This document shows, in pieces, positions 1,861 through 46,038 of a DNA stretch of 64,000 nucleotides. Made by a program: the position numbers and the translations under genes. The notes beneath the pieces are model-generated. The model was not told the origin of the DNA. It was given only the letters and a program-made list of their open reading frames with translations, and did not search any database. Each line of letters opens with the position of its first letter. Position 1 is the first letter of the stretch. Source of the DNA: Chitinophagales bacterium (GTDB lineage Bacteria > Bacteroidota > Bacteroidia > Chitinophagales > LD1); the NCBI GenBank assembly GCA_016786765.1, contig JAEUUZ010000059.1, positions 124,001 through 188,000 of the forward strand, written 5' to 3'.

Positions 1861-3747
1861 ATGGCAAAAGAACGGGAAAAGATAGAGGTGGAATACAATG
1901 AGGACAATATACGGTCGCTCGATTGGAAAGAACACATGCGTATTCGTCCGGGGATGTACATCGGTAAAACCGGTGATGGTTCTTCGGTAGATGATGGAAT
2001 TTATATTCTCCTTAAAGAGGTAGTAGATAATACAATAGATGAGTATGTGATGGGCTACGGTAACAAAGTAGAAATCACCGTTACTCGTGAAAAAGTTACC
2101 GTACGCGATTATGGTCGCGGTATTCCATTAGGGAAAGTAATCGATTGTGTGTCGCAGATCAATACCGGTGGAAAATACGATTCTAAAGCCTTCAAAAAAT
2201 CGGTGGGTTTGAACGGGGTGGGTACCAAAGCGGTGAATGCGCTTTCTGCCTACTTTAAAGTATATGCCGTTCGGGAAGGCGAAATGAAATGCGCTGAATT
2301 CGAACGTGGCGAATTGGTGAAGGATCATAAAGTGGTGAAAACAGACGAGAAGAACGGTACGTATGTAGAGTTCATTCCCGATACCACCATTTTCAAAAAC
2401 TATCACTTCATTAATGATTATGTGGAGCAGATGGTGATGAACTACACCTATCTGAACACAGGCTTGGCGTTTCATTTCAACGGACAACGATTCATTTCGC
2501 AAAAAGGATTACACGATTTATTGTCGCGCAAAAAAGCCGTTGAAAACTTGCGTTACCCCATCATTCACTTAGTAAGCGATGATATTGAAATTGCATTGAG
2601 TCACAGTAACCAATACGGTGAAGAATACTATTCGTTTGTGAACGGACAGTATACTGTGCAAGGCGGAACACACTTACAAGCATTTCGCGAAGGGATTGTG
2701 AAAGTGGTACGTGAGTTCTACAAAAAAGATTACGACACAGTCGATATTCGAGAAGCCATTGTAGCTGCCATTTCCATTCGTATTCAAGAGCCGGTGTTTG
2801 AATCGCAAACCAAAACAAAACTCGGAACCGAGAAATTGTTGGGCGAAGAGAAAACCATGAAAGCCTTTATTTATGAGTTTTTGAAGCAGCATCTCGATAA
2901 TTACTTGCACAAAAATGCGGAAACGGCTGATGCGTTGTTGAAACGAATTTTGCAATCGGAGCGGGAACGAAAAGAGATTGCAGGGATTAAAAAGCTGGCG
3001 AATGAACGTGCGAAGAAGGCGAACATTCACAACAAAAAATTACGCGATTGCAAACAGCATTTAGGCGATTTGAAATACGAACATCGTTTGCGTACCACCT
3101 TGTTTATCACCGAGGGAGATTCTGCAAGTGGATCGATTACTAAGTCTAGAAACACTGACTTACAGGCCGTATTCAGTTTGCGCGGTAAGCCGTTGAACTG
3201 TCACGGACTCACGAAAAAAATTGTGTACGAAAACGAAGAGTTCAACTTGTTGCAACACGCGTTGAACATTGAAGATTCGGTAGATGAATTGCGCTACAAC
3301 AATATTGTTATTGCTACCGATGCCGATGTGGATGGTATGCACATTCGCTTATTGATTTTGACTTTCTTCATGCAGTTTTTTCCGGATGTGGTGCGTAACG
3401 GGCATGTGAAAATTTTGGAAACACCGTTGTTCCGGGTGCGAAACAAACAACGTACGGTGTATTGTTATTCGGAAACCGAAAAGCAGCAAGCCATTGCCTC
3501 ATTCAATAATAAATGCGAGATCACGCGTTTCAAAGGGTTGGGAGAAATTTCACCGGAAGAGTTTGGCGGATTTATTGGGGAAGATATTCGCTTGTCGCCC
3601 GTAATTATCAATGACGACAACGATTTGAAGAGCATCCTCGATTATTATATGGGAAAAAACACGCAAGAGCGTCAAGATTTCATCATCGACAATTTACGTA
3701 TCGAAAAAGACGATGCCGAGTTGGAAGTAGAAATGGAATTAGCATAA
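1861..3747 (+). CDS. parE: DNA topoisomerase IV subunit B (ParE type)
   Basis: A 628-aa ATPase subunit of a type IIA topoisomerase that decatenates daughter chromosomes. GHKL ATPase features: catalytic Glu53 and Asn57 in [21 protein letters not shown], and the [14 protein letters not shown] lid. A TOPRIM domain follows, with EGDSASGS near residue 415 and the metal-binding [10 protein letters not shown] near 487. The length (about 630 aa) and the partner gene 21 bp downstream, which is parC-like, support ParE rather than GyrB, which is usually a little longer in this phylum. Probably the first gene of an operon continuing through parC. Confidence 0.93.
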
Positions 3748-3768: not shown

Positions 3769-6369
3769 ATGGAGAATACGAATTTACCCGAAGGCGGGGA
3801 TAACGAAGCAAAGGTGATACATGTAGATGGCATGTTCAAAAATTGGTTTTTGGACTATGCATCGTATGTTATTCTAGAGCGAGCGGTGCCGGCTATTGAA
3901 GATGGCTTGAAACCTGTGCAGCGAAGGATTTTGCATGCATTGTATCAAATGGATGATGGTCGTTTTCATAAAGTAGCGAACGTTATCGGACAAACCATGC
4001 AGTATCACCCGCACGGGGATGCCAGTATTGGCGATGCATTGGTGAACATTGGACAGAAAGAATTGATGTTCGATACTCAAGGTAACTGGGGCGATGTACG
4101 CACAGGCGATAGCGCTGCTGCTCCGCGTTACATTGAGGTGCGTTTGTCGAAATTCGCTAAAGACGTGGCCTTCAACCCCGATACCACTACTTGGCAATTG
4201 AGTTATGACGGACGGAAGAAAGAACCCGTTGTGTTGCCTATGAAATTTCCGTTGTTGTTGTTTCATGGTACCGATGGTATTGCCGTAGGGCTTTCAACGA
4301 AAGTAATGCCGCATAACTTTGTGGAGATTTTGAAAGGCTCCATGGATATTCTCAAAGGCAAGAAACCTAAGCTGTATCCCGATTTCCCGACTGGTGGCTT
4401 GGTAGATGTGAGCGAATACAACAGCGGTGCACGTGGTGGTAAAATCAAAGTAAGAGCGAAGATTGAAATCGTTGATAAAAAGAATTTATCGATTCGGGAG
4501 ATACCTTTTGGAACAACCACTTCATCGTTGATTGATTCGATCTTGAAAGCCAATGATAAAGGCAAAATCAAGATTAAGAAAGTAACGGATAGTACAGCTA
4601 AGGATGTCGATATTCAAATTGAATTGTTGCCGGGAACCGATCCGGATGTGACCATTGATGCTTTGTATGCCTTTACGGATTGTCAGTATTCCATTTCTCC
4701 CAATGCTTGTGTGATTGTTGGCGATAAACCAATTTTCACAACCGTAGATGAGATGTTGCGTATTTCAACGGAGAATACAAAAGAGTTATTACGACAAGAG
4801 TTGTTGATTAAGCAGAGCGACTTAAACGAAAAATGGCATTTCTCTTCCCTCGAAAAAATATTTATTGAGAAGCGCATCTACCGCGACATTGAAGAAGCGG
4901 AAACCTGGGAGGCTGTAATCTCTAAGATTGATAAAGGTTTGACGCCTTATAAGAAATTGTTCAAACGCGTTATCACCCAAGAAGATATTGTTCGATTAAC
5001 GGAAATCAAAATCAAACGTATTTCGAAATTCGATGCCTTTAAAGCTGATGAAGAAATTAGAGGCATTGAAGAAGGCTTGAAGCAAGTGGCTTTCGATTTG
5101 GAAAACTTGGTGGAATATGCCATCAATTATTTCGAAACGTTGTTGAAGAAATACGGTAAAGGTCGCGAGCGAAGAACGGAAATTAAAGGCTTTGAAACCA
5201 TTGAAGTAAAACAAGTAGTAGCCAACAACACTAAGTTGTATGCCAATAGAGCCGAAGGTTTCATTGGAAGCGGTTTGAAAAAAGACGAGTTCATTTGCGA
5301 GTGTGCAGATATCGATGATATTATTGCCTTTACGCGTTCCGGCAAAATGATGGTGGTGAAAGTTGGCGATAAGAAGTTTATCGGCAAAGACATCATCCAC
5401 ATTGCGGTTTGGAATAAGAGCGATGAGCGTACAACCTACAATTATGTGTATTACGATGGCGCTTCGAAACGTACTTATGCAAAGCGTTTCAACGTTTCCG
5501 GTGTAACCCGCGATAAGGAATACGATTTGGCACAAGGTACAGCCGGTTCAAAAGTGTTGTATTTCACGGCTAACCAAAATGCAGAAACGGAAATTGTGAA
5601 AGTGCAATTGCACCCGAATTCTTCTGCTCGTATCAAAGAGTTTGAATTCGACTTTGCTGCCTTGGATATTAAAGGTCGTCAGTCGATGGGAAATATTCTC
5701 ACCAAATTCCCGGTACGCAAAATTGAGTTGAAAGAGAAAGGTTCATCTTCTATTGGAGGTTTGAAATTGTGGTTCGATAAGAAATTCGGACGTTTGGCTT
5801 CCGAAGAGAAAGAATTGTATTTGGGAGAATTCAACACTGGTGATCGTATTTTAGTGGCTTACAAAGATGGTAATGTGGAGTTAACGAACTTCGAACAGAC
5901 CAATAAATATGAGCCGGACGATATGTTGTACATCGGCAAGTTCGATCCTCAAAAGCCATATAATGCGGTATATTTTGATGGAGCTTCTAAAAACTATTAC
6001 GTGAAGCGCTTTTTAGTGGAGTTGAAAACGGAGCGCAATAAAGTACCTATTGTCACTGAACACAAAGATTCAAAGTTGGCCATTTTCTCCGATGCAAAAG
6101 AGGCATTTGTGAAATTCCATTTCTTAAAGGGAAAGGAAAAAGAGAAGTTAGAAACCGAAGTGAACTTATCGGAAATGATTGATGTAAAAGGATGGAAGGC
6201 TCTAGGGAATAGACTTTCGCAACATTTGGTGACCGGTAAGTTAGAAGAAGTGGTGAAGGTAGTTGAGCCGGAGGTTGTGGAGGAAACAAAGCCAACTACA
6301 ACCATTGAGTGGGATATTCAACCGAGCGAGATAGCCAAGAAAAAAGGTCAGCAGGGCGATTTATTTTAG
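3769..6369 (+). CDS. parC: DNA topoisomerase IV subunit A (ParC type)
   Basis: An 866-aa cleavage subunit partnered with the preceding parE product. The active-site tyrosine is Tyr121 in AAAPRYIEVRL. The quinolone-resistance region reads YHPHGDASIGDALV (residues 79-92). The winged-helix and tower regions are followed by a coiled-coil gate and a C-terminal beta-propeller-like half (repeats such as YYDGASKRTYAKRF and YFDGASKNYYVKRF near residues 560 and 740). The C-terminal tail is charged (VVKVVEPEVVEETKP). Length matches Bacteroidota ParC. It is in the same operon as parE. Confidence 0.93.
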   Translation: MENTNLPEGGDNEAKVIHVDGMFKNWFLDYASYVILERAVPAIEDGLKPVQRRILHALYQMDDGRFHKVANVIGQTMQYHPHGDASIGDALVNIGQKELMFDTQGNWGDVRTGDSAAAPRYIEVRLSKFAKDVAFNPDTTTWQLSYDGRKKEPVVLPMKFPLLLFHGTDGIAVGLSTKVMPHNFVEILKGSMDILKGKKPKLYPDFPTGGLVDVSEYNSGARGGKIKVRAKIEIVDKKNLSIREIPFGTTTSSLIDSILKANDKGKIKIKKVTDSTAKDVDIQIELLPGTDPDVTIDALYAFTDCQYSISPNACVIVGDKPIFTTVDEMLRISTENTKELLRQELLIKQSDLNEKWHFSSLEKIFIEKRIYRDIEEAETWEAVISKIDKGLTPYKKLFKRVITQEDIVRLTEIKIKRISKFDAFKADEEIRGIEEGLKQVAFDLENLVEYAINYFETLLKKYGKGRERRTEIKGFETIEVKQVVANNTKLYANRAEGFIGSGLKKDEFICECADIDDIIAFTRSGKMMVVKVGDKKFIGKDIIHIAVWNKSDERTTYNYVYYDGASKRTYAKRFNVSGVTRDKEYDLAQGTAGSKVLYFTANQNAETEIVKVQLHPNSSARIKEFEFDFAALDIKGRQSMGNILTKFPVRKIELKEKGSSSIGGLKLWFDKKFGRLASEEKELYLGEFNTGDRILVAYKDGNVELTNFEQTNKYEPDDMLYIGKFDPQKPYNAVYFDGASKNYYVKRFLVELKTERNKVPIVTEHKDSKLAIFSDAKEAFVKFHFLKGKEKEKLETEVNLSEMIDVKGWKALGNRLSQHLVTGKLEEVVKVVEPEVVEETKPTTTIEWDIQPSEIAKKKGQQGDLF

Positions 6370-7682: not shown

Positions 7683-8865
7683 GCGTTTCATCTTCTTTTG
7701 TTGATGTAAGCAAAAGCCACATAACGCCTGCAATTGATGAAATGCAGGACCCAATAACAATATACAATTTCGACTGAGCAATCAATGCATTGTCTGTGAA
7801 GGCTAATAGCGTAACAAAGATAGACATGGTGAAGCCAATACCACCCAACATCCCCATTCCTACTATTTGATTCCATGTTACCCTTTCCGGTAGTTTACCC
7901 CATTTCATTTTCACACTTAAGAAAGAGAATAGGAAAATACCAATGGTTTTGCCGAATATCAATCCTAGTATAATACCTAAAGCTAACGGGGAGCCAATTT
8001 CAGCAATATATTGTGGTTGAATATGAATGGCTGTGTTACAAAATGCAAAGAGAGGTAAAACAAAAAAATTGACAGGTCGTTCCAAGAAATGTGTAAGTAG
8101 TTGGAATGATGAATGTTCATTCTCTTCATCTAGCGGGATGAAAAATGCCAACACCACACCTGCAACTGTTGCATGCACACCGCTCATGGCTACTGTAATC
8201 CATAAAAACACTCCTACTATTAAATAGACCCAAAGTGTTTTGATCCCTGCTTTATTCAAAATGAAAAGCAATGCAAGAATGCCTGCTGCTGCTATTAATG
8301 CCGTGTAATTCAATTGTGCAGTATAGAATACGGCAATCACCAACACGGCTCCTAAATCATCAACTACGGCTAGTGTTGTAAGTAAAACAATTAAGTTTTT
8401 GTTCACGCGATGTTTAATCAATTGTAAAACAGCTAATGCAAAGGCAATATCCGTTGCCATTGGAATGGCCCATCCCGAAGCAGATGCTTTATTGAAATTG
8501 AATAACGCAAAAATAAGTGCGGGGAAAACCATACCTCCAATGGCAGCGGCAAAGGGCACAGCAGCAGTTTTAAAATCCGAAAGTGAACCAATCAGCAATT
8601 CGCGTTTAATTTCTAAACCCACTAGTAAAAAGAAGAAACTCATCAACACATCGTTGATGAAGGCTTCTGTAGTGAAATGTAGTCCTCCTATGTTAACCGT
8701 ATGGTGCCAAATGTTGGCAAAAGAATCACTCCACATCGAATTCGCCAACACTAAAGAAAGTATAGCGCTAGTGATAACAATATTACCCGATGCGGTTAAT
8801 GTTTGCGCAAACGATTGGAATTGTAGCTGGGTTAGAGAAAGGATTTTTTTAGTGGTTTTTCGCAT
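7672..8865 (-). CDS. nhaA: Na+/H+ antiporter NhaA
   Basis: A 397-aa inner-membrane antiporter that exports sodium in exchange for protons. It has about 12 hydrophobic segments and the key acidic pair Asp169/Asp170 in LAVVDDLGAVLVIAVF, corresponding to E. coli Asp163/164. Asp139 in PMATDIAFALAV matches E. coli Asp133, and LLVGLEIKRELLIGSL is also family-typical. It starts 13 bp after the PorE-like gene, so it may share that transcript. Its end overlaps def tail to tail. Confidence 0.95.
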   Translation of the reverse strand: MRKTTKKILSLTQLQFQSFAQTLTASGNIVITSAILSLVLANSMWSDSFANIWHHTVNIGGLHFTTEAFINDVLMSFFFLLVGLEIKRELLIGSLSDFKTAAVPFAAAIGGMVFPALIFALFNFNKASASGWAIPMATDIAFALAVLQLIKHRVNKNLIVLLTTLAVVDDLGAVLVIAVFYTAQLNYTALIAAAGILALLFILNKAGIKTLWVYLIVGVFLWITVAMSGVHATVAGVVLAFFIPLDEENEHSSFQLLTHFLERPVNFFVLPLFAFCNTAIHIQPQYIAEIGSPLALGIILGLIFGKTIGIFLFSFLSVKMKWGKLPERVTWNQIVGMGMLGGIGFTMSIFVTLLAFTDNALIAQSKLYIVIGSCISSIAGVMWLLLTSTKEDETLIS

Positions 8866-31031: not shown

Positions 31032-34000
31032 ATGAAAAAATATTGTCTATTTCTAGTAGCATTTTTCGTCATACTGGGCAGTAAGCAGATAGTTGCACAA
31101 CAGTGCGATGTAATTTATGTTACACCCACCGGAGCCTCTTCAGGTGTAGCCGGCACCAAAGCCAATCCTGCAAGTTTAACCTATGCATTAACATTGGTAA
31201 CTGCGACCTCCAATAAAATTTGGATGGCACAAGGTAATTATGCTTTAGCACAACCTATTCAACTGATTAGCAATGTAACCATAGAAGGTGGTTTTGATGC
31301 AACAACTTGGATTAAGAGCAATGCAACACCAACTGTTATTGCGAAGGATAACAGCAATGTAATTGTTGCAGCAAATGCATTAGTGGCTTTTGCTGGGAAT
31401 GCAGTAAGTAATTTTCGATTACAAGATTTAACCATAACAGTAGCGAATGCAGTAGGTGCGCAAACTTCGGTGTACGGAATTTATTTGAATGGATGCAGTA
31501 ACTACAATATAGTGCGTTGTAATGTTACAACAGGAAATGCCGGTGCAGGTGTGCCCGGTAATGGAGGAACTGCGGGTGCAGCAGGTGGAGCAGGAGGTGC
31601 AGGTCCTGCAGCAAATGGGAATGAACAATATTTTCCCGGAGGAACCGGAGGTGTTGGAGGCAATAATGGCGGAACAGGTTCTACCAATGGCCGACATAGC
31701 GGTGGAACCGGACCCGGAAGTCCAGGTGCAGGAGCATGTGGGGGTGCCGGAGGAGCAAGCGGAACAGGCCCATCTTGTACTGCGGGTTGTGCTTTTGGAA
31801 GTCCTAATTGCGGGAGTGCAACAGCCGGTCAACCCGGTGTAGCTGGAGGCCCCGGCACAGCTGGAAATGCAGGAGCACCAGGTCCGGCAGGAACGGTTGC
31901 TATTCCCGGTTTTTTTGTGCCGGGTGGGGCAGGAGGAACAGGTACTACAGGCACTCCTGGTTGCGGAGGCGGTGGTGGTGGCGGTGGCGGTGGCCGACAA
32001 AACAGTGGCCCCGATGATGTTGGCGGAGGCGGTGGAGGCGGAGGCGGAGGCGGCTTCGGAGGTACAGGAGGTACAGGTGGCACAGGCGGTGGAGGATCTT
32101 TTGCAGTTTTTTTATATAACAATGGAGCAGGTGGCAGTATTGCCGATTGTGCGCTTAATCCAGGTTTAGGAGGTATTGGTGGCGCTGGAGGAAATGGTGG
32201 ATCAGGCGGATCAGGCGGATCAGGTGGCCCGGGAGGTGCTGCCGGTTGCGGACCAAACCCAGGAGGCGCAGGTGGTGCAGGAGGAACAGGTGGAGCGGGC
32301 GGAGCAGGTGGTGCCGGAGCAAACGGACCAAGCACAGCCCTTTCTGAAAATGGAGGAACACCTGTAACACAAAGTAATATTACGTCTGTGCCCGGAAATC
32401 CACCGGTAATAGCAGTCGATAATCATGGATGTACCAATGCGCAAGTAATTTTTACATCACCAACATCCGGAGCTTGGAATTTCGGAACTGGCGCAACACC
32501 TACAACAGGAAGCGGATCAGGGCCAATTGCTGTAACGTACAGTAATACCGGAAGAAAAACAATTTCTTTCTCCGGAACTTCATTTACCGATTTCGTGGAT
32601 ATCTATACTTCGCAATCGGTATCAGGAACAATCACTGGGAAAAATGCACCGGCCATCAATGGTTGCCCTGATACATTTACTACAACAATTTCCGGTTCTT
32701 TGTATCAGTGGACATTCGGTGCAAATGCACAACCACCGGCTGTTTCAGGAGCGAGTTATCAATCGGCTCCAGTTGTTTTTCTTCAACCCGGTCCGCAATG
32801 GGTAGCCGTTTATGTTACAACTCCTTGTTGCGGTATTGTTAAAGATTCGGTGTTGGTGAATGTACAACCCAACTCGATTAATGTATTGTTAGCTGCCTCC
32901 AAAGATACAATTTGCGCAGGCGATGCGATTACGTATACGGCTACACCAACAGGCTATTTGGGCTATACCTTTATTGTGAACAATGTTCCGGTACAAAATG
33001 GTCCGTCTAATATATTTACTACATCTACATTAAACCCTGGCGACAGTGTTATTGTTGCTGCATTCGATGGTGTTTGTTTTTCTAATCCCAGTGCAGTAAA
33101 ACATCCGGTGGTGAATCCAATTCCTACAGTAAGTTTGGCGAGTTCCGATGCCGATAACACCATTTGCAGTGGCGATAATGTTACGTTTACAGCAACGCCT
33201 AACGGCTACGATACTTATACGTTTTATTACGGAGCAACTGTGTTACAAGCCAATGCTGCCAATACCTATTCAACAACTACATTAGCAGCCGGAAATTCTA
33301 TTACAGTTGTGGCCACGAATAAAGGTTGTAACAGTCTGCAAAGCACTGCAATTGTATCAACAGTAAATCCTATTCCTGTAATTACCATAAGCTCGCCTTC
33401 TCCAAGCTATTGTGTGGGCGATAATATAACCATAACCGCTAATCCAAACACATACGCGAACTACGATTTTAGTTTGAATGGAGCGTCCGTTCAAAGTTCA
33501 GCAGCAAATACTTACAGCGCTACAACATTTGTAACTGGCGATATAGTTGCTGTAGTGGCGTCTGCCAATGGATGTAATAGCAGTGTTCAAACATTACCTG
33601 CATTAACCGTAAATCCTATTCCTTCTGTAACATTAGCAAGCTCAGATGTCGATAATTCCATTTGTCAGAACGAGCAAATTACATTTACTGCTAGTCCGGC
33701 AGGTTTGGCGCTTTATGAGTTTTATAATGGAGCGACCTTACTACAATCTGGAGCTTCCGAAACCTATACCACCACAACACTTCCGTCAGGAAATAGTGTA
33801 ACGGTTTATGCCACAAATCTCAATTGCAAGAGTCCGGTGAGTAATGCCATTGTTACGGCTATTCAGCCGGCACCAACAGTAGATGCAGGTCCAAATCAAA
33901 GTGCTTGTGTGGATGCTGCTGTCATTACTTTATCGGGCAATAATCCGGTGGGTGGAAATTGGACTGGAACCGGAATTGTTAATGCCACAGGCGATTTCGA

Positions 34001-41485: not shown

Positions 41486-41548
41486 TGTAGAGTGGCTTTC
41501 CATTCTTAATCGTTTGAATTTGCTATAGTTTTCGGTATGTAGAGTGGC
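41486..41548. repeat. 11-bp direct repeats upstream of the GlxA-like gene
   Basis: TGTAGAGTGGC occurs at 41486-41496 and again at 41538-41548, 52 bp apart, which is about five DNA turns. They lie just upstream of the promoter at 41565-41609. AraC-family proteins often bind two direct half-sites in this arrangement, so these could be operator half-sites. Confidence 0.5.
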
Positions 41549-41564
41549 CGAAAATGTCTTTTTG

Positions 41565-41609
41565 TTGTCTTAACGGATTCATTAATTGTACTTAGATTTG
41601 TTCAACAAA
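41565..41609 (+). promoter_or_regulatory. Promoter with palindromic operator, copy 1
   Basis: TTGTC (41565-41569), a 23-bp spacer, then TAGATTTG (41593-41600, fits TAnnTTTG). The -7 box overlaps a perfect 13-bp palindrome TTTGTTCAACAAA (41597-41609). The gene starts at 41615. The same arrangement with the same 23-bp spacer occurs at 45666-45710. Shared regulation is inferred from this identity. Confidence 0.6.
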
Positions 41610-41614
41610 AAATT

Positions 41615-42532
41615 ATGGCGACACGATTTGTATTTTTACTCTTACCGCAGCTTCACATATTAGATTTGGCAGGTCCGGATCAAGCATTACATGAGGCAAT
41701 GGATTATGGTGCGGATTTTTCAATCGAATATTGCGGGATTAATGAATCTATAGTATCTACAAGTGGTTTGCCTTTCGGGGAAGTGCAACATTTTACAAAA
41801 GTCAAATTGAAGAAAGGCGATTTTCTGGTAATTCCAGGTTCTGATTTTACGTACCTGATTTCTCCAAAGTTCCTCGCAAAGAAAGATTTGTTTCAATGGA
41901 TTGGAACAAATTATACAAAGGGCGTTAATATTTGCAGCATTTGTATTGGTGCTTTCGTGTTGGCCGAAACCGGATTATTAAATGGCTTATCGTGTACAAC
42001 TCATTTTAAAAAAACAAAGGAGCTACAAAAGCGTTATCCTAAACTAAAGGTAATTGAAAATATTCTATTCACCGATCATAACGGTATATATACAAGCGCT
42101 GGGATTGCATCGGGGATTGACTTAATGTTGCACATCATTGAGAAACTAAAGGGGAGTTACTTTGCCTACAAAGTTGCCAGAGAATTAGTGGTTTACAACC
42201 GCAGAGCCGGACATTTAGCCCAAGAAAGTGAGATGTTGAAATTTAGAAATCACATACATTCTGGTGTTCATAAAGTGCAAGATTTCATTATTGAAAATAT
42301 ACACCGGAAAATAAGCATGAGCGATTTAGCGAATATCGCCAACATGAGCGAGCGTAATTTTACACGAGTATTTAAAAAGGAAACGAATATAACCGTTAAC
42401 GATTTTGTAACCATTATTCGGAAAGAGAAAAGTATGGATTTACTTAAGAATCCGGATTTGTCAAAGCGCGAAATAGCCAACAAAGTTGGTCTTCAAAGTG
42501 AAAAGCAATTAGCCCGAATTCTCAACAAATAA
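41615..42532 (+). CDS. GlxA-family transcriptional regulator (DJ-1/PfpI-AraC)
   Basis: A 305-aa regulator. N-terminal DJ-1/PfpI-like domain (about 1-195) with the nucleophile elbow SICIGAFVLAETGLL; C-terminal AraC-type HTH (about 220-305) with DLANIANMSERNFTRVFKKETN and KREIANKVGLQSEKQLARIL. GlxA-type regulators usually control genes linked to small-metabolite or stress responses. It sits three bases before the M1-like gene, and the promoter ahead of it carries a 13-bp palindrome (see 41565-41609), so autoregulation and control of the neighbour are plausible. Confidence 0.9.
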   Translation: MATRFVFLLLPQLHILDLAGPDQALHEAMDYGADFSIEYCGINESIVSTSGLPFGEVQHFTKVKLKKGDFLVIPGSDFTYLISPKFLAKKDLFQWIGTNYTKGVNICSICIGAFVLAETGLLNGLSCTTHFKKTKELQKRYPKLKVIENILFTDHNGIYTSAGIASGIDLMLHIIEKLKGSYFAYKVARELVVYNRRAGHLAQESEMLKFRNHIHSGVHKVQDFIIENIHRKISMSDLANIANMSERNFTRVFKKETNITVNDFVTIIRKEKSMDLLKNPDLSKREIANKVGLQSEKQLARILNK

Positions 42533-42535
42533 CAC

Positions 42536-45070
42536 ATGAAATCAATTTTGCTTTCGTGTATTTTCTATCTATTAATTGCTGATTCAATGATAGCGCAAAC
42601 AATCGATACAAAACATATTTTGATACACTTAACCTTCGATTGGCAACAACGTCTGGCCGATGGATTTGTGGAGATAACTCTTTCACCTACTCAAGAAACG
42701 AATACGATTTGCTTAGATGCCGGAATGTTGAATATAAAGTCGGTTTTCCTTAACAATAAATTGTTATCGTTTAGTTATGATGGTAGCGATACTAAAGACA
42801 ACCTTCTCATTCAACTGGATAAAACCTATCAAACAAACGAATCATTAGTTTTAAAAATAAATTATACTACTACTTATGAGAATCGGTCTGACCCGAATGC
42901 AATTTGGGGGAGTTTTGGCAAAGGCTTGCGATTCCAAGGTCCAACAGCAACATCACCTTCTAAAAGGAGGCAGATATGGAGCAGTGGAGAACCAGAAGGC
43001 AATAAATACTGGTTCCCATGTCATGAGGCAATAGAGGATATTCACACTACAGAGGTAATAGCGACAGTTGAAAAGCCATTGATGGTCATTAGCAATGGTA
43101 CACTTCACCCAGTAACGGATAATGGTAATAACACCCGAACTTTTCATTATACTTCGGATACTCCATTCCCTAATTATCTGGTAGCAATTGTAGTTGGAGA
43201 ATATGATGATGTAATGCTACAATCGAATACTACAACTATTCACAATTATGGATATCCACACGAGCGTGATGCAGTAAAAGCTACAACTGAACTGCTTCCC
43301 AGTATGTTGCAATTTTTGGAACAGAAAACGAATTATACATATCCCTTCAAACAATATTCGCAGGTAGTTGTGCAAGATTACCCTTTCCCCGGTTTAGTAG
43401 GGCAACATTCTGTTTCAATTTTGTCGGATAACTATATTGATGATTATGGTGTGCATAAAGATTTTAAATATTTATGGGATGGAGTAGCTGTAGAAGCATT
43501 GGCCAGTCAGTGGTTTGGAAGTTTAATTATGCCAAAAAAGTGGGGCGATATTTGGTTGAGTAAGGCATTTGCCCAATATTTTGCCGGCCTTTTTACAGAA
43601 AAAGATAATGGCAGAACGGAGTATTTAAGTTATATACAGCCTTTTGAAAAAAGTAATGTGCTGAGTGAATGGGAGGCAGGAGTAATACACCCTACAGCTA
43701 TTAAGAATGCAGATCACAGATCTTCAGTTATACCTGAACAATATTCCAAATACAGAGGCGCTCTGATTTTGCGTATGCTGCAAAAAGAAATAGGAGAGGA
43801 GCATTGGTGGAAGGCTATACAGCTTTTTGTAAAAACAAGTGCATTTAAACAAGTGAGTACAAGTGATTTTCAAAAAACTATTGAGCAGGTTACAGGGAAA
43901 TCGTATCAATGGTTTTTCGATCAGTGGGTATATAAAATTGGATTACCACATTTTGAGGTTACTCAGCAGTATGATACAACACAAAAACAACTTATACTTA
44001 TTGTAAAACAACCAGAGAACGAGAAAAATGATAGTGCCTATGCGCAAGTAAAATTTTATACGGGTAAGCTTGATGTTGGAATCGAGAATGCAGTTCATAC
44101 AATACGTATTGAACCAAAAGCGGAGAACAGGTATGTTTTTTCATTATCAATTCCTCCAAAATTTATCCATTTTAATGTGGATGGGATATGGATTTGTAAG
44201 ACTGAATTTAAAAAATCATGCGATGAATATTTAATGCAGTTAAAATATTGTAACAGTGTTTTAGCAAAGCAAGAAGCGTTAGATCAGTTGGTAGAAATAG
44301 CCAATGATTCTGCCACTGCTAATGAGCTAAGGGAAAGAATAAAGACTGCCTTTTGTAACGAAATTCAATCTAAAACCTATTGGCGATATCGTGTATATGC
44401 TATAGGTAGTTTACGTAAGATTGTTGCAGCACCTTATAATGATGGAATTTGTTCAATGCTATTGGATATCATTAAAACAGAACATGCGTGGCTAAAAACT
44501 TCAGCTATTTTTAGTTTAGGAAATACTAAAGACGAAAAATATGTTGATGTGTATCTAGAGGCACTAAAAGATAGTAGCGATCGGGTGGTCAATGCTGCCG
44601 CTGTTGCATTAGGGAAAACAAAGTCTCATAGGGCGTATGCTGCTCTAATGGATTTAGAACATAAACCATCATGGAAAAATCAAAGTCGAATTAGTGCGCT
44701 GAATGGTTTGGAACAATTAGCGGATGATCGAGCAGCCACTTATGTATTAAATTGTATAAAAGATAATACCTCACCACGTTGGTTTTTGGCAACTCCGGTA
44801 TGGGATTACCCTTATGCTGCTGCAAATACTTTAGTAACTTTAAAAAAGGCTGATGAAGCTTTCCCTATTTTGTTTGAACGGTTTAAACAAGCATTGACCG
44901 ACAACGACATTAACGATATTTTTCAAAATGTTCAATTGATAGATATACTCAATGATAAAAGAGGTATAGAAGTATATCGTTTACTCAAGGAGAAATTTAA
45001 AATGGATACAGTAATCCTTGGCGCAGTTCAAAGTTACGAGCTACAGTATTTGGAACGAATGAAAGACTAG
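42536..45070 (+). CDS. M1 aminopeptidase homologue lacking zinc ligands (probable pseudoenzyme)
   Basis: An 844-aa exported protein with signal peptide (1-20), an M1-type N-terminal beta domain (WGSFGKGLRFQGP; EPEGNKYWFPCHEAIEDIHTTEV is a family phrase), a peptidase-like core and C-terminal HEAT-like repeats (about 650-810). In the core, HELAH is replaced by EALAS (320-324, followed by QWFGSLIMPKKWGDIW), and the third zinc ligand in WLNEGFA is Lys343 (WLSKAFA). The GAMEN motif is replaced by LVGQHSV. A working zinc site therefore seems absent. The fold match is strong; loss of catalysis is inferred. Confidence 0.83.
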   Translation: MKSILLSCIFYLLIADSMIAQTIDTKHILIHLTFDWQQRLADGFVEITLSPTQETNTICLDAGMLNIKSVFLNNKLLSFSYDGSDTKDNLLIQLDKTYQTNESLVLKINYTTTYENRSDPNAIWGSFGKGLRFQGPTATSPSKRRQIWSSGEPEGNKYWFPCHEAIEDIHTTEVIATVEKPLMVISNGTLHPVTDNGNNTRTFHYTSDTPFPNYLVAIVVGEYDDVMLQSNTTTIHNYGYPHERDAVKATTELLPSMLQFLEQKTNYTYPFKQYSQVVVQDYPFPGLVGQHSVSILSDNYIDDYGVHKDFKYLWDGVAVEALASQWFGSLIMPKKWGDIWLSKAFAQYFAGLFTEKDNGRTEYLSYIQPFEKSNVLSEWEAGVIHPTAIKNADHRSSVIPEQYSKYRGALILRMLQKEIGEEHWWKAIQLFVKTSAFKQVSTSDFQKTIEQVTGKSYQWFFDQWVYKIGLPHFEVTQQYDTTQKQLILIVKQPENEKNDSAYAQVKFYTGKLDVGIENAVHTIRIEPKAENRYVFSLSIPPKFIHFNVDGIWICKTEFKKSCDEYLMQLKYCNSVLAKQEALDQLVEIANDSATANELRERIKTAFCNEIQSKTYWRYRVYAIGSLRKIVAAPYNDGICSMLLDIIKTEHAWLKTSAIFSLGNTKDEKYVDVYLEALKDSSDRVVNAAAVALGKTKSHRAYAALMDLEHKPSWKNQSRISALNGLEQLADDRAATYVLNCIKDNTSPRWFLATPVWDYPYAAANTLVTLKKADEAFPILFERFKQALTDNDINDIFQNVQLIDILNDKRGIEVYRLLKEKFKMDTVILGAVQSYELQYLERMKD

Positions 45071-45129
45071 TATTATCTTTTTTTGTTATAGATAAATTGT
45101 TCCTCAGTCCACAATTCAAAAAGTAGTAT

Positions 45130-45591
45130 ATGTTTTCATCTTATTCTTCCAGGCCTATTCGTTTTATAAAAGTATTGCACCATCAAAATTGGAAGATTAA
45201 GCTATATAGCATTTCAGTAGAAAGTGCATTAGTTTCAGTCGATAACATCACCCTTGCCACAAGGTCTTTAGAGCAATGGCTCTCTAAATGTAACGTGTAT
45301 GCTCTCCCAACATATAATATAGCAACACTTATACTCCATGAGGGCAAAGAAGGATGTTTCGCTATTTTGAATTGGTGGCTTGATCAAAACATGACACAAA
45401 ACTATATTTACTTGAAGCGCCAACAGGAAAAAGTATTTGAGTTAGTTTCAGATCGAGGAATGTCGGTTTGTGTTTGGGAAATGGCTGTTCTTTGGCATGA
45501 ACGTAATGCATGGGTAAAACATGTGCTGATGCAACACGAACAGCCCAATTTTATTGGCTATCTAGCCGATCAATTGAATTGTGATATTTAA
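45130..45591 (+). CDS. Protein of unknown function
   Basis: A 153-aa soluble protein without signal peptide or membrane helix. It contains ALPTYNIATLILHEGKEGCFAILNWWLDQNMTQNYIYLKRQ and VCVWEMAVLWHERNAWVKHVLMQHEQPNF, which are rich in Trp and His. I recognise no family. It follows the M1-like gene by 59 bp on the same strand. Confidence 0.65.
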   Translation: MFSSYSSRPIRFIKVLHHQNWKIKLYSISVESALVSVDNITLATRSLEQWLSKCNVYALPTYNIATLILHEGKEGCFAILNWWLDQNMTQNYIYLKRQQEKVFELVSDRGMSVCVWEMAVLWHERNAWVKHVLMQHEQPNFIGYLADQLNCDI

Positions 45592-45622
45592 CAAGCGTTT
45601 ATTCCTCCAAACAAAATTTTAG

Positions 45623-45635
45623 AATAGATTCTATT
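45623..45635. promoter_or_regulatory. Perfect 13-bp palindrome
   Basis: AATAGATTCTATT reads AATAGA-T-TCTATT, a perfect 6+1+6 palindrome, 31 bp upstream of the TTGTC element of the promoter at 45666-45710. It may be a second operator for the lipoprotein gene. Confidence 0.35.
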
Positions 45636-45665
45636 GTAACTCTTTTGGCTATATATGTCGGATAG

Positions 45666-45710
45666 TTGTCCGTATGGTTTTAGTACTTCTCAATAGTTTT
45701 GTTCAACAAA
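45666..45710 (+). promoter_or_regulatory. Promoter with palindromic operator, copy 2
   Basis: TTGTC (45666-45670), a 23-bp spacer and TAGTTTTG (45694-45701, fits TAnnTTTG) overlapping the palindrome TTTGTTCAACAAA (45698-45710). It matches the GlxA-gene promoter in motif, spacing and palindrome. The lipoprotein gene starts at 45721. Confidence 0.6.
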
Positions 45711-45720
45711 AACAATAAGT

Positions 45721-46038
45721 ATGAAAAATTTAATCGTAGTTCTTTTTTTAATTTGTAGTGCTGCTTGTAGAAAGCCAGCTACAACGAATTGTTCTAATAC
45801 TATTGCCGGCACATTAAAGTACTCTCCTCAAAGTGGTTCATGCATGGATTGGTATATTGTTACGCCATCGGGATGGCTCATGCCTGCAAATCTTGAATCG
45901 TTTTTGGTAACACCCAAAGATAATCAACCCGTAAAGTTTTCATATGAGTATGCTGCAACTCCTTCGATGAATTTTGCTTGTAACATTGCCCCGCTCATTA
46001 CTATTACTTGCTTAGATTCAACGGTTACAATTCGCTGA
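45721..46038 (+). CDS. Small cysteine-rich lipoprotein
   Basis: A 105-aa lipoprotein: signal MKNLIVVLFLICSAAC with lipobox SAAC, then RKPATTNC and a short beta-rich domain with four further Cys (positions near 23, 41, 82, 93) that could form disulfides. No family recognised. Its promoter carries the palindrome described at 45666-45710, so it may belong to the same regulon as the GlxA-like regulator. Confidence 0.7.
   Translation: MKNLIVVLFLICSAACRKPATTNCSNTIAGTLKYSPQSGSCMDWYIVTPSGWLMPANLESFLVTPKDNQPVKFSYEYAATPSMNFACNIAPLITITCLDSTVTIR

Follow-up and report, generated by a model that had tools for sequence, protein, structure and literature searches.

At the araBAD promoter of Escherichia coli, the activator site of AraC ends near -36 and adjoins the core promoter. 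The operator described here has a like position, but the sensor domain of the regulator, the sequence of the site and the type of sigma factor are different. Closer in domain composition are CdhR and GbdR, GATase-1 AraC-family regulators of Pseudomonas aeruginosa, which according to the published account (PMC5806209) have the same DJ-1/PfpI-like (GATase-1) domain and AraC helix-turn-helix (HTH) as the product of gene 41615 in the window, the whole 64,000-nucleotide stretch of DNA analysed here. In CdhR the two GGTCGC half-sites are separated by 15 bp, giving a period of 21 bp, and the protein raises its own expression (PMC5806209). The distance from -60 to -39 in the window site is also 21 bp, but a third block lies in between and the half-site is TGnC as compared to GGTCGC. 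The promoters are of the TAnnTTTG type, unlike those of CdhR and GbdR, and the targets are envelope-type genes and not genes for carnitine or betaine breakdown.

The locus and its genes

The gene order is regulator (41615..42532), M1-like gene (42536..45070), HP153 (45130..45591) and then, under a second promoter, a small lipoprotein gene (45721..46038), all on the plus strand. The regulator is a GlxA-like protein of 305 aa with an N-terminal DJ-1/PfpI-like domain (Pfam DJ-1_PfpI 6e-17, residues 6-176) and a C-terminal AraC HTH (HTH_AraC 1.3e-10, HTH_18 3.8e-10), which makes it a GATase-1/AraC-type protein. Its best NCBIfam match is the FtrA/GlxA-type model NF006902 (3.9e-50), yet it is not an FtrA equivalog, the score being 170.9 bits as compared to a cut-off of 425, and the cut-off of the GbdR equivalog NF052371 is not reached either (98.3 vs 480 bits).

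The M1-like gene begins 3 bp past the regulator gene and is probably in the same operon, to which HP153 would also belong by its position. Its product has HEAT repeats and an M1 domain (Pfam Peptidase_M1 6.6e-23), but the zinc motif HEXXH-18-E is absent in 10/10 aligned homologs, and the corresponding positions of the window protein read EALAS and LSKAF. Judged from the alignment it is probably a conserved pseudo-peptidase. HP153 is a conserved protein of 153 aa with no assigned function, which in relatives is a neighbour or carries the operator itself; no PDB relative was found at E up to 1, and the AlphaFold prediction made from two sequences had a mean pLDDT of 46.3 and was set aside. The lipoprotein (105 aa) has no family, and a 37% identical homolog in genome G052 has its own operator. 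Elsewhere in the window, at 31428-32335 on the minus strand, long open frames lie opposite a Gly-rich stretch of the 31032 gene and are probably composition artefacts.

The two promoters

According to the original prediction, TTGTC-N23-TAGnTTTG overlapping the 13-bp palindrome TTTGTTCAACAAA stands before two genes, the GlxA-like one and that of the lipoprotein, and both copies were exact. In the regulator promoter TTGTC is found at 41565-41569, the -7 box TAGATTTG at 41593-41600 and the palindrome at 41597-41609, and in the lipoprotein promoter TTGTC is at 45666-45670, the -7 box TAGTTTTG at 45694-45701 and the second copy of the palindrome at 45698-45710, all on the plus strand. Both boxes are TAnnTTTG boxes of the Bacteroidota sigma-A type promoter, and the promoters together with the gene content point to this phylum for the organism. 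We number positions after Flavobacterium johnsoniae, with the first T of TAnnTTTG as -12 (PMC6847099). A scan of the whole genome (3,624,525 bases), proposed together with the original prediction, gave two exact matches to TAGNTTTGTTCAACAAA, both in these promoters, none at one mismatch and 17 at two mismatches; the reversed control gave 10 matches at up to two mismatches. The bare 13-mer has six copies in the genome, and the four outside these promoters lie within open frames of 337, 638, 251 and 146 residues.

We also compared the two promoters with a sample of 464 kb from the same genome holding 48 candidate TAnnTTTG promoters, both window promoters included; many of these candidates are perhaps not genuine. 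Among the 1128 pairs of candidates only the window pair had all nine bases after the box identical (TTCAACAAA), for which the position-specific probability in a given pair is about 1.9e-5. The spacers are identical at 11/23 bases, by estimate somewhat above AT-rich chance, and upstream 13/40 bases match. A G at -10, as in TAGnTTTG, was present in 15/48 candidates; the depletion of G at this position described for F. johnsoniae (PMC6847099) was not visible in the sample, and no inference was drawn from it.

A longer site upstream of the -7 box

The two promoters have a longer site in common that had been missed, TGGC-N6-TGTC-N6-TTGTC, and the TTGTC noticed earlier is its last third. It is located at 41545-41569 (-60 to -36, plus strand, TGGCCGAAAATGTCTTTTTGTTGTC) in the regulator promoter, where it is kept in orthologs, and at 45646-45670 (plus strand, TGGCTATATATGTCGGATAGTTGTC) in the lipoprotein promoter. 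Both are exact matches to the composite, and both end exactly 23 bp 5' of the -7 box. Only two perfect matches to the full pattern TGGCN6TGTCN6TTGTCN23TANNTTTG exist in the genome, the window promoters, and with up to three mismatches allowed only one further match appeared, at three mismatches. The 25-bp part (TGKC, TGTC, TTGNC) had no other exact match and two one-mismatch matches in the 464-kb sample, which includes the window. A composite match in G000:C30 was taken as chance.

The derived form of the 25-bp site is TGkCYnAAAATGTC-N6-TTGnC. Its TGnC blocks, at -60, -50 and -39, are 10 and 11 bp apart, on one face of the helix. The outer blocks, TGKC (-60) and TGNC (-39), are separated by 21 bp, with the third block between them and a sequence unlike that of CdhR. 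What there is of a -33 TTTG element in the window promoters is just TTGTC, with TTG 25 bp from the box and within the operator. An 11-bp direct repeat, TGTAGAGTGGC, occurs at 41486-41496 and 41538-41548, and the second copy, which runs into the TGGC of the operator, could be an extra half-site.

Conservation of the site with the regulator

Forty GlxA-like proteins, that of the window included, were collected from 60 relatives, 395 genomes of the class, 396 genomes of the order and one further contig scan; weaker matches, and 2 of 32 rows of one search that had no assigned locus, were left out. A site with at most one mismatch was found within 300 bp upstream of 17/40 of the genes, as compared to 2/2000 shuffled stretches, and 15 of these 17 are followed by a TAnnTTTG box with no more than one mismatch, 13 of them at 23 bp and two at 24 bp. 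The other 23 homologs comprise four in which a linked gene has the site or the site lies at a greater distance upstream (L060, L129, L130, L010), two with a two-mismatch site and a perfect box at 23 bp (L063, L139) and 17 for which no convincing site was found. Fifteen regulators group together in the protein tree as a clade with a support of 100/99, and all 15 have the operator at the regulator or at a linked gene; in L129 it has two mismatches, and in L130 it is about 540 bp away upstream and the gap to the box is 24 bp. About 540 bp 5' of the regulator gene is also where the site of L158 (G533) is found.

The exact string TGGCYNAAAATGTCN6TTGNC has five matches in the 395 class genomes, each directly 5' of a GlxA-like gene. 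Such a gene, at E up to 1e-60, is present in only 9/395 genomes, and its association with the exact site is strong (Fisher 1.6e-9). Some of the genomes used for counting the motif had, however, also served to derive it. When one mismatch was allowed, the number of matches in the 395 genomes did not exceed the reversed control (24 vs about 28), and another search gave 9 vs 8. Of these 24 matches, 17 lay away from any GlxA-like or partner gene and had no TAnnTTTG 23 bp further on, and they were regarded as chance; matches in G307:C16 and G058:C44, from other searches, were treated in the same way. Furthermore, an alignment of 25 sites was selected by the motif, and its fixed positions are therefore circular; only the N positions are independent.

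In L054 the regulator is 70% identical to that of the window, the M1-like gene and HP153 follow it in the order found there, and the upstream region reads TGGCTGAAAATGTCTGTTTTTTGAC-N23-TATTTTTG. This contig (JASGCW010000013.1) is filed under a Limnohabitans bin, but the regulator groups with Bacteroidota-type homologs and the contig is probably misbinned.

Sites in other genomes

Fourteen genomes with the regulator clade and 14 without it were scanned for the composite site, which was present in 14/14 of the former and 1/14 of the latter. The 28 genomes gave 19 sites in the clade genomes, one in the others and three matches to the reversed control. The 19 sites stand before the regulator (10), the M1-like gene (4), an outer-membrane barrel gene (2), the lipoprotein gene (2) and HP153 (1), and four of the 19 are on contigs without a regulator match. 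The site was seen 5' of M1-like genes in G470:C41 and G726:C391 (45% and 47% identical to that of the window), 5' of HP153 in G533:C120 (57%) and 5' of a barrel gene in G305:C54 (46% to that of G052). The four off-contig sites are the strongest evidence, since only the DNA pattern was used to find them and their genes were identified afterwards, although the genomes are drafts and these sites may still be linked to the regulator at longer range. G052 has the site before the lipoprotein gene, with one mismatch, and an exact one before an operon of barrel and GlxA-like genes, the barrel protein being Pfam OMP_b-brl_3. HP153 occurs in 9/14 clade genomes and in 0/14 of the others. The three lipoprotein homologs from genomes without the clade (L041, L042, L043) all lack the site.

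Further sites were observed outside the clade. In G073 and G602 they are 5' of alpha/beta-hydrolase-like genes, identified by inspection, and in G176 an exact site is 5' of a truncated GlxA-like gene; at this locus (L163, G176:C197, site at 3358, minus strand) the operator and -7 box are exact, and the gene ends after about 40 codons. L167 has paired sites back to back near the regulator gene, at 7932 (minus) and 7967 (plus), and L169 has two near its regulator, at 6298 and 7627 (both minus), one of which precedes a gene for a Cys-rich small peptide and one for an esterase-like lipoprotein. The paired sites of L167 and L169 suggest a sister regulon whose operator is a variant form, and in a second subfamily (L063, L134, L139, L141) the operator seems to be a variant, of the TGTCCnTTTnTGAC type.

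Proposed regulation of the two promoters

The site has a fixed spacing, it is conserved, and it is tied to the regulator clade and to a set of target families. Common control of the two promoters is probable, with the 41615 product as the best candidate for the regulator. It is likely that both are targets of one autoregulated GATase-1/AraC-type activator, this product, acting through the 25-bp site, and that the palindrome is not its conserved site. The 41615 product would bind the operator at -60 to -36 and touch the RNA polymerase, with the proximal contact standing in for a -33 element, and would in this way drive its own operon (regulator, M1-like gene, HP153) and the separate lipoprotein gene. 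The DJ-1/PfpI domain may sense a small molecule that controls this activity. The comparison with CdhR, which has the same domain composition and repeats 21 bp apart and raises its own expression, speaks for this reading.

The original prediction saw in the palindrome over the -7 box a possible binding site for a repressor or an activator, with the GlxA-like protein as a candidate, and the palindrome is indeed exact in both promoters and occurs together with its -7 box only twice in the genome; the nine shared bases after the box are also hard to ascribe to chance. But TTTGTTCAACAAA is missing from 23/23 further promoters with the same architecture and operator, orthologs of the regulator gene included, the bases after the box match TTCAACAAA at 7/9 positions in L154 and at only 1-5/9 in the other 22, and the palindrome partly consists of the -7 box itself and the A-rich start region. 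An operator at the palindrome is therefore highly improbable. Selection on the shared parts and the 41615 product as candidate are the parts of that interpretation that stand. The common TTCAACAAA could be due to an extra site peculiar to this lineage, to selection acting on the bases transcribed first or to an old copying of the promoter. Derivation of the second promoter from the first by such copying would add to the preferred explanation and not replace it, and the spacer identity in promoters 4.1 kb apart is in line with this. With so few upstream bases matching, however, the identical bases after the box would still require selection, and the lipoprotein promoter of G052 has its own operator and no palindrome, so we regard a copy as quite unlikely.

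A mainly repressing role for the GlxA-like protein at the same site is unlikely. AraC-type regulators are mostly activators, which counts against repression, and the site lies 5' of the core promoter, as for activators. On the other side, CdhR without ligand lowers its own basal expression (PMC5806209). It is highly improbable that TTGTC is an ordinary -33 element and that both are plain, unregulated sigma-A type promoters; the published consensus TTTG/TAnnTTTG (PMC6847099) would fit, and TTG is found more often at 25 bp from the box than at any other single distance (6/48 candidates, both window promoters among them), but the conservation of the upstream TGGC-N6-TGTC would be left unexplained, and so would the near-exclusive co-occurrence with the regulator clade and the recurring target families. 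The link between the 41615 protein and the site comes from sequence comparison, which leaves room for some other regulator, but the site tracks the regulator clade across genomes and sits at the regulator's own promoter, and another protein reading it is very unlikely.

Implications

A literature search, which included the site and palindrome strings and left most subscription papers outside its coverage, found no paper on this operator or regulon. To our knowledge, few such operators have been described in this bacterial group. An M1-fold protein without the zinc motif, absent in all 10 homologs, is an odd target for such a regulator. It is possible, but a tentative suggestion, that the locus represents an undescribed envelope system of Bacteroidota, in which a DJ-1/AraC sensor switches on itself, a dead M1-fold protein that would bind or scaffold a peptide-like signal, HP153, an outer-membrane barrel and a lipoprotein, with the operator, set at an exact distance from the -7 box, in place of the -33 element.

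Through the operator the GlxA-like regulator most likely activates its own gene together with a small number of genes for the cell envelope. The operator would be an activator site kept at a fixed distance from a TAnnTTTG box, and it provides a concrete operator, regulator and target list for this bacterial group. HP153, the lipoprotein and the probably dead M1-like protein are thereby tied together by probable co-regulation, which makes their function testable.
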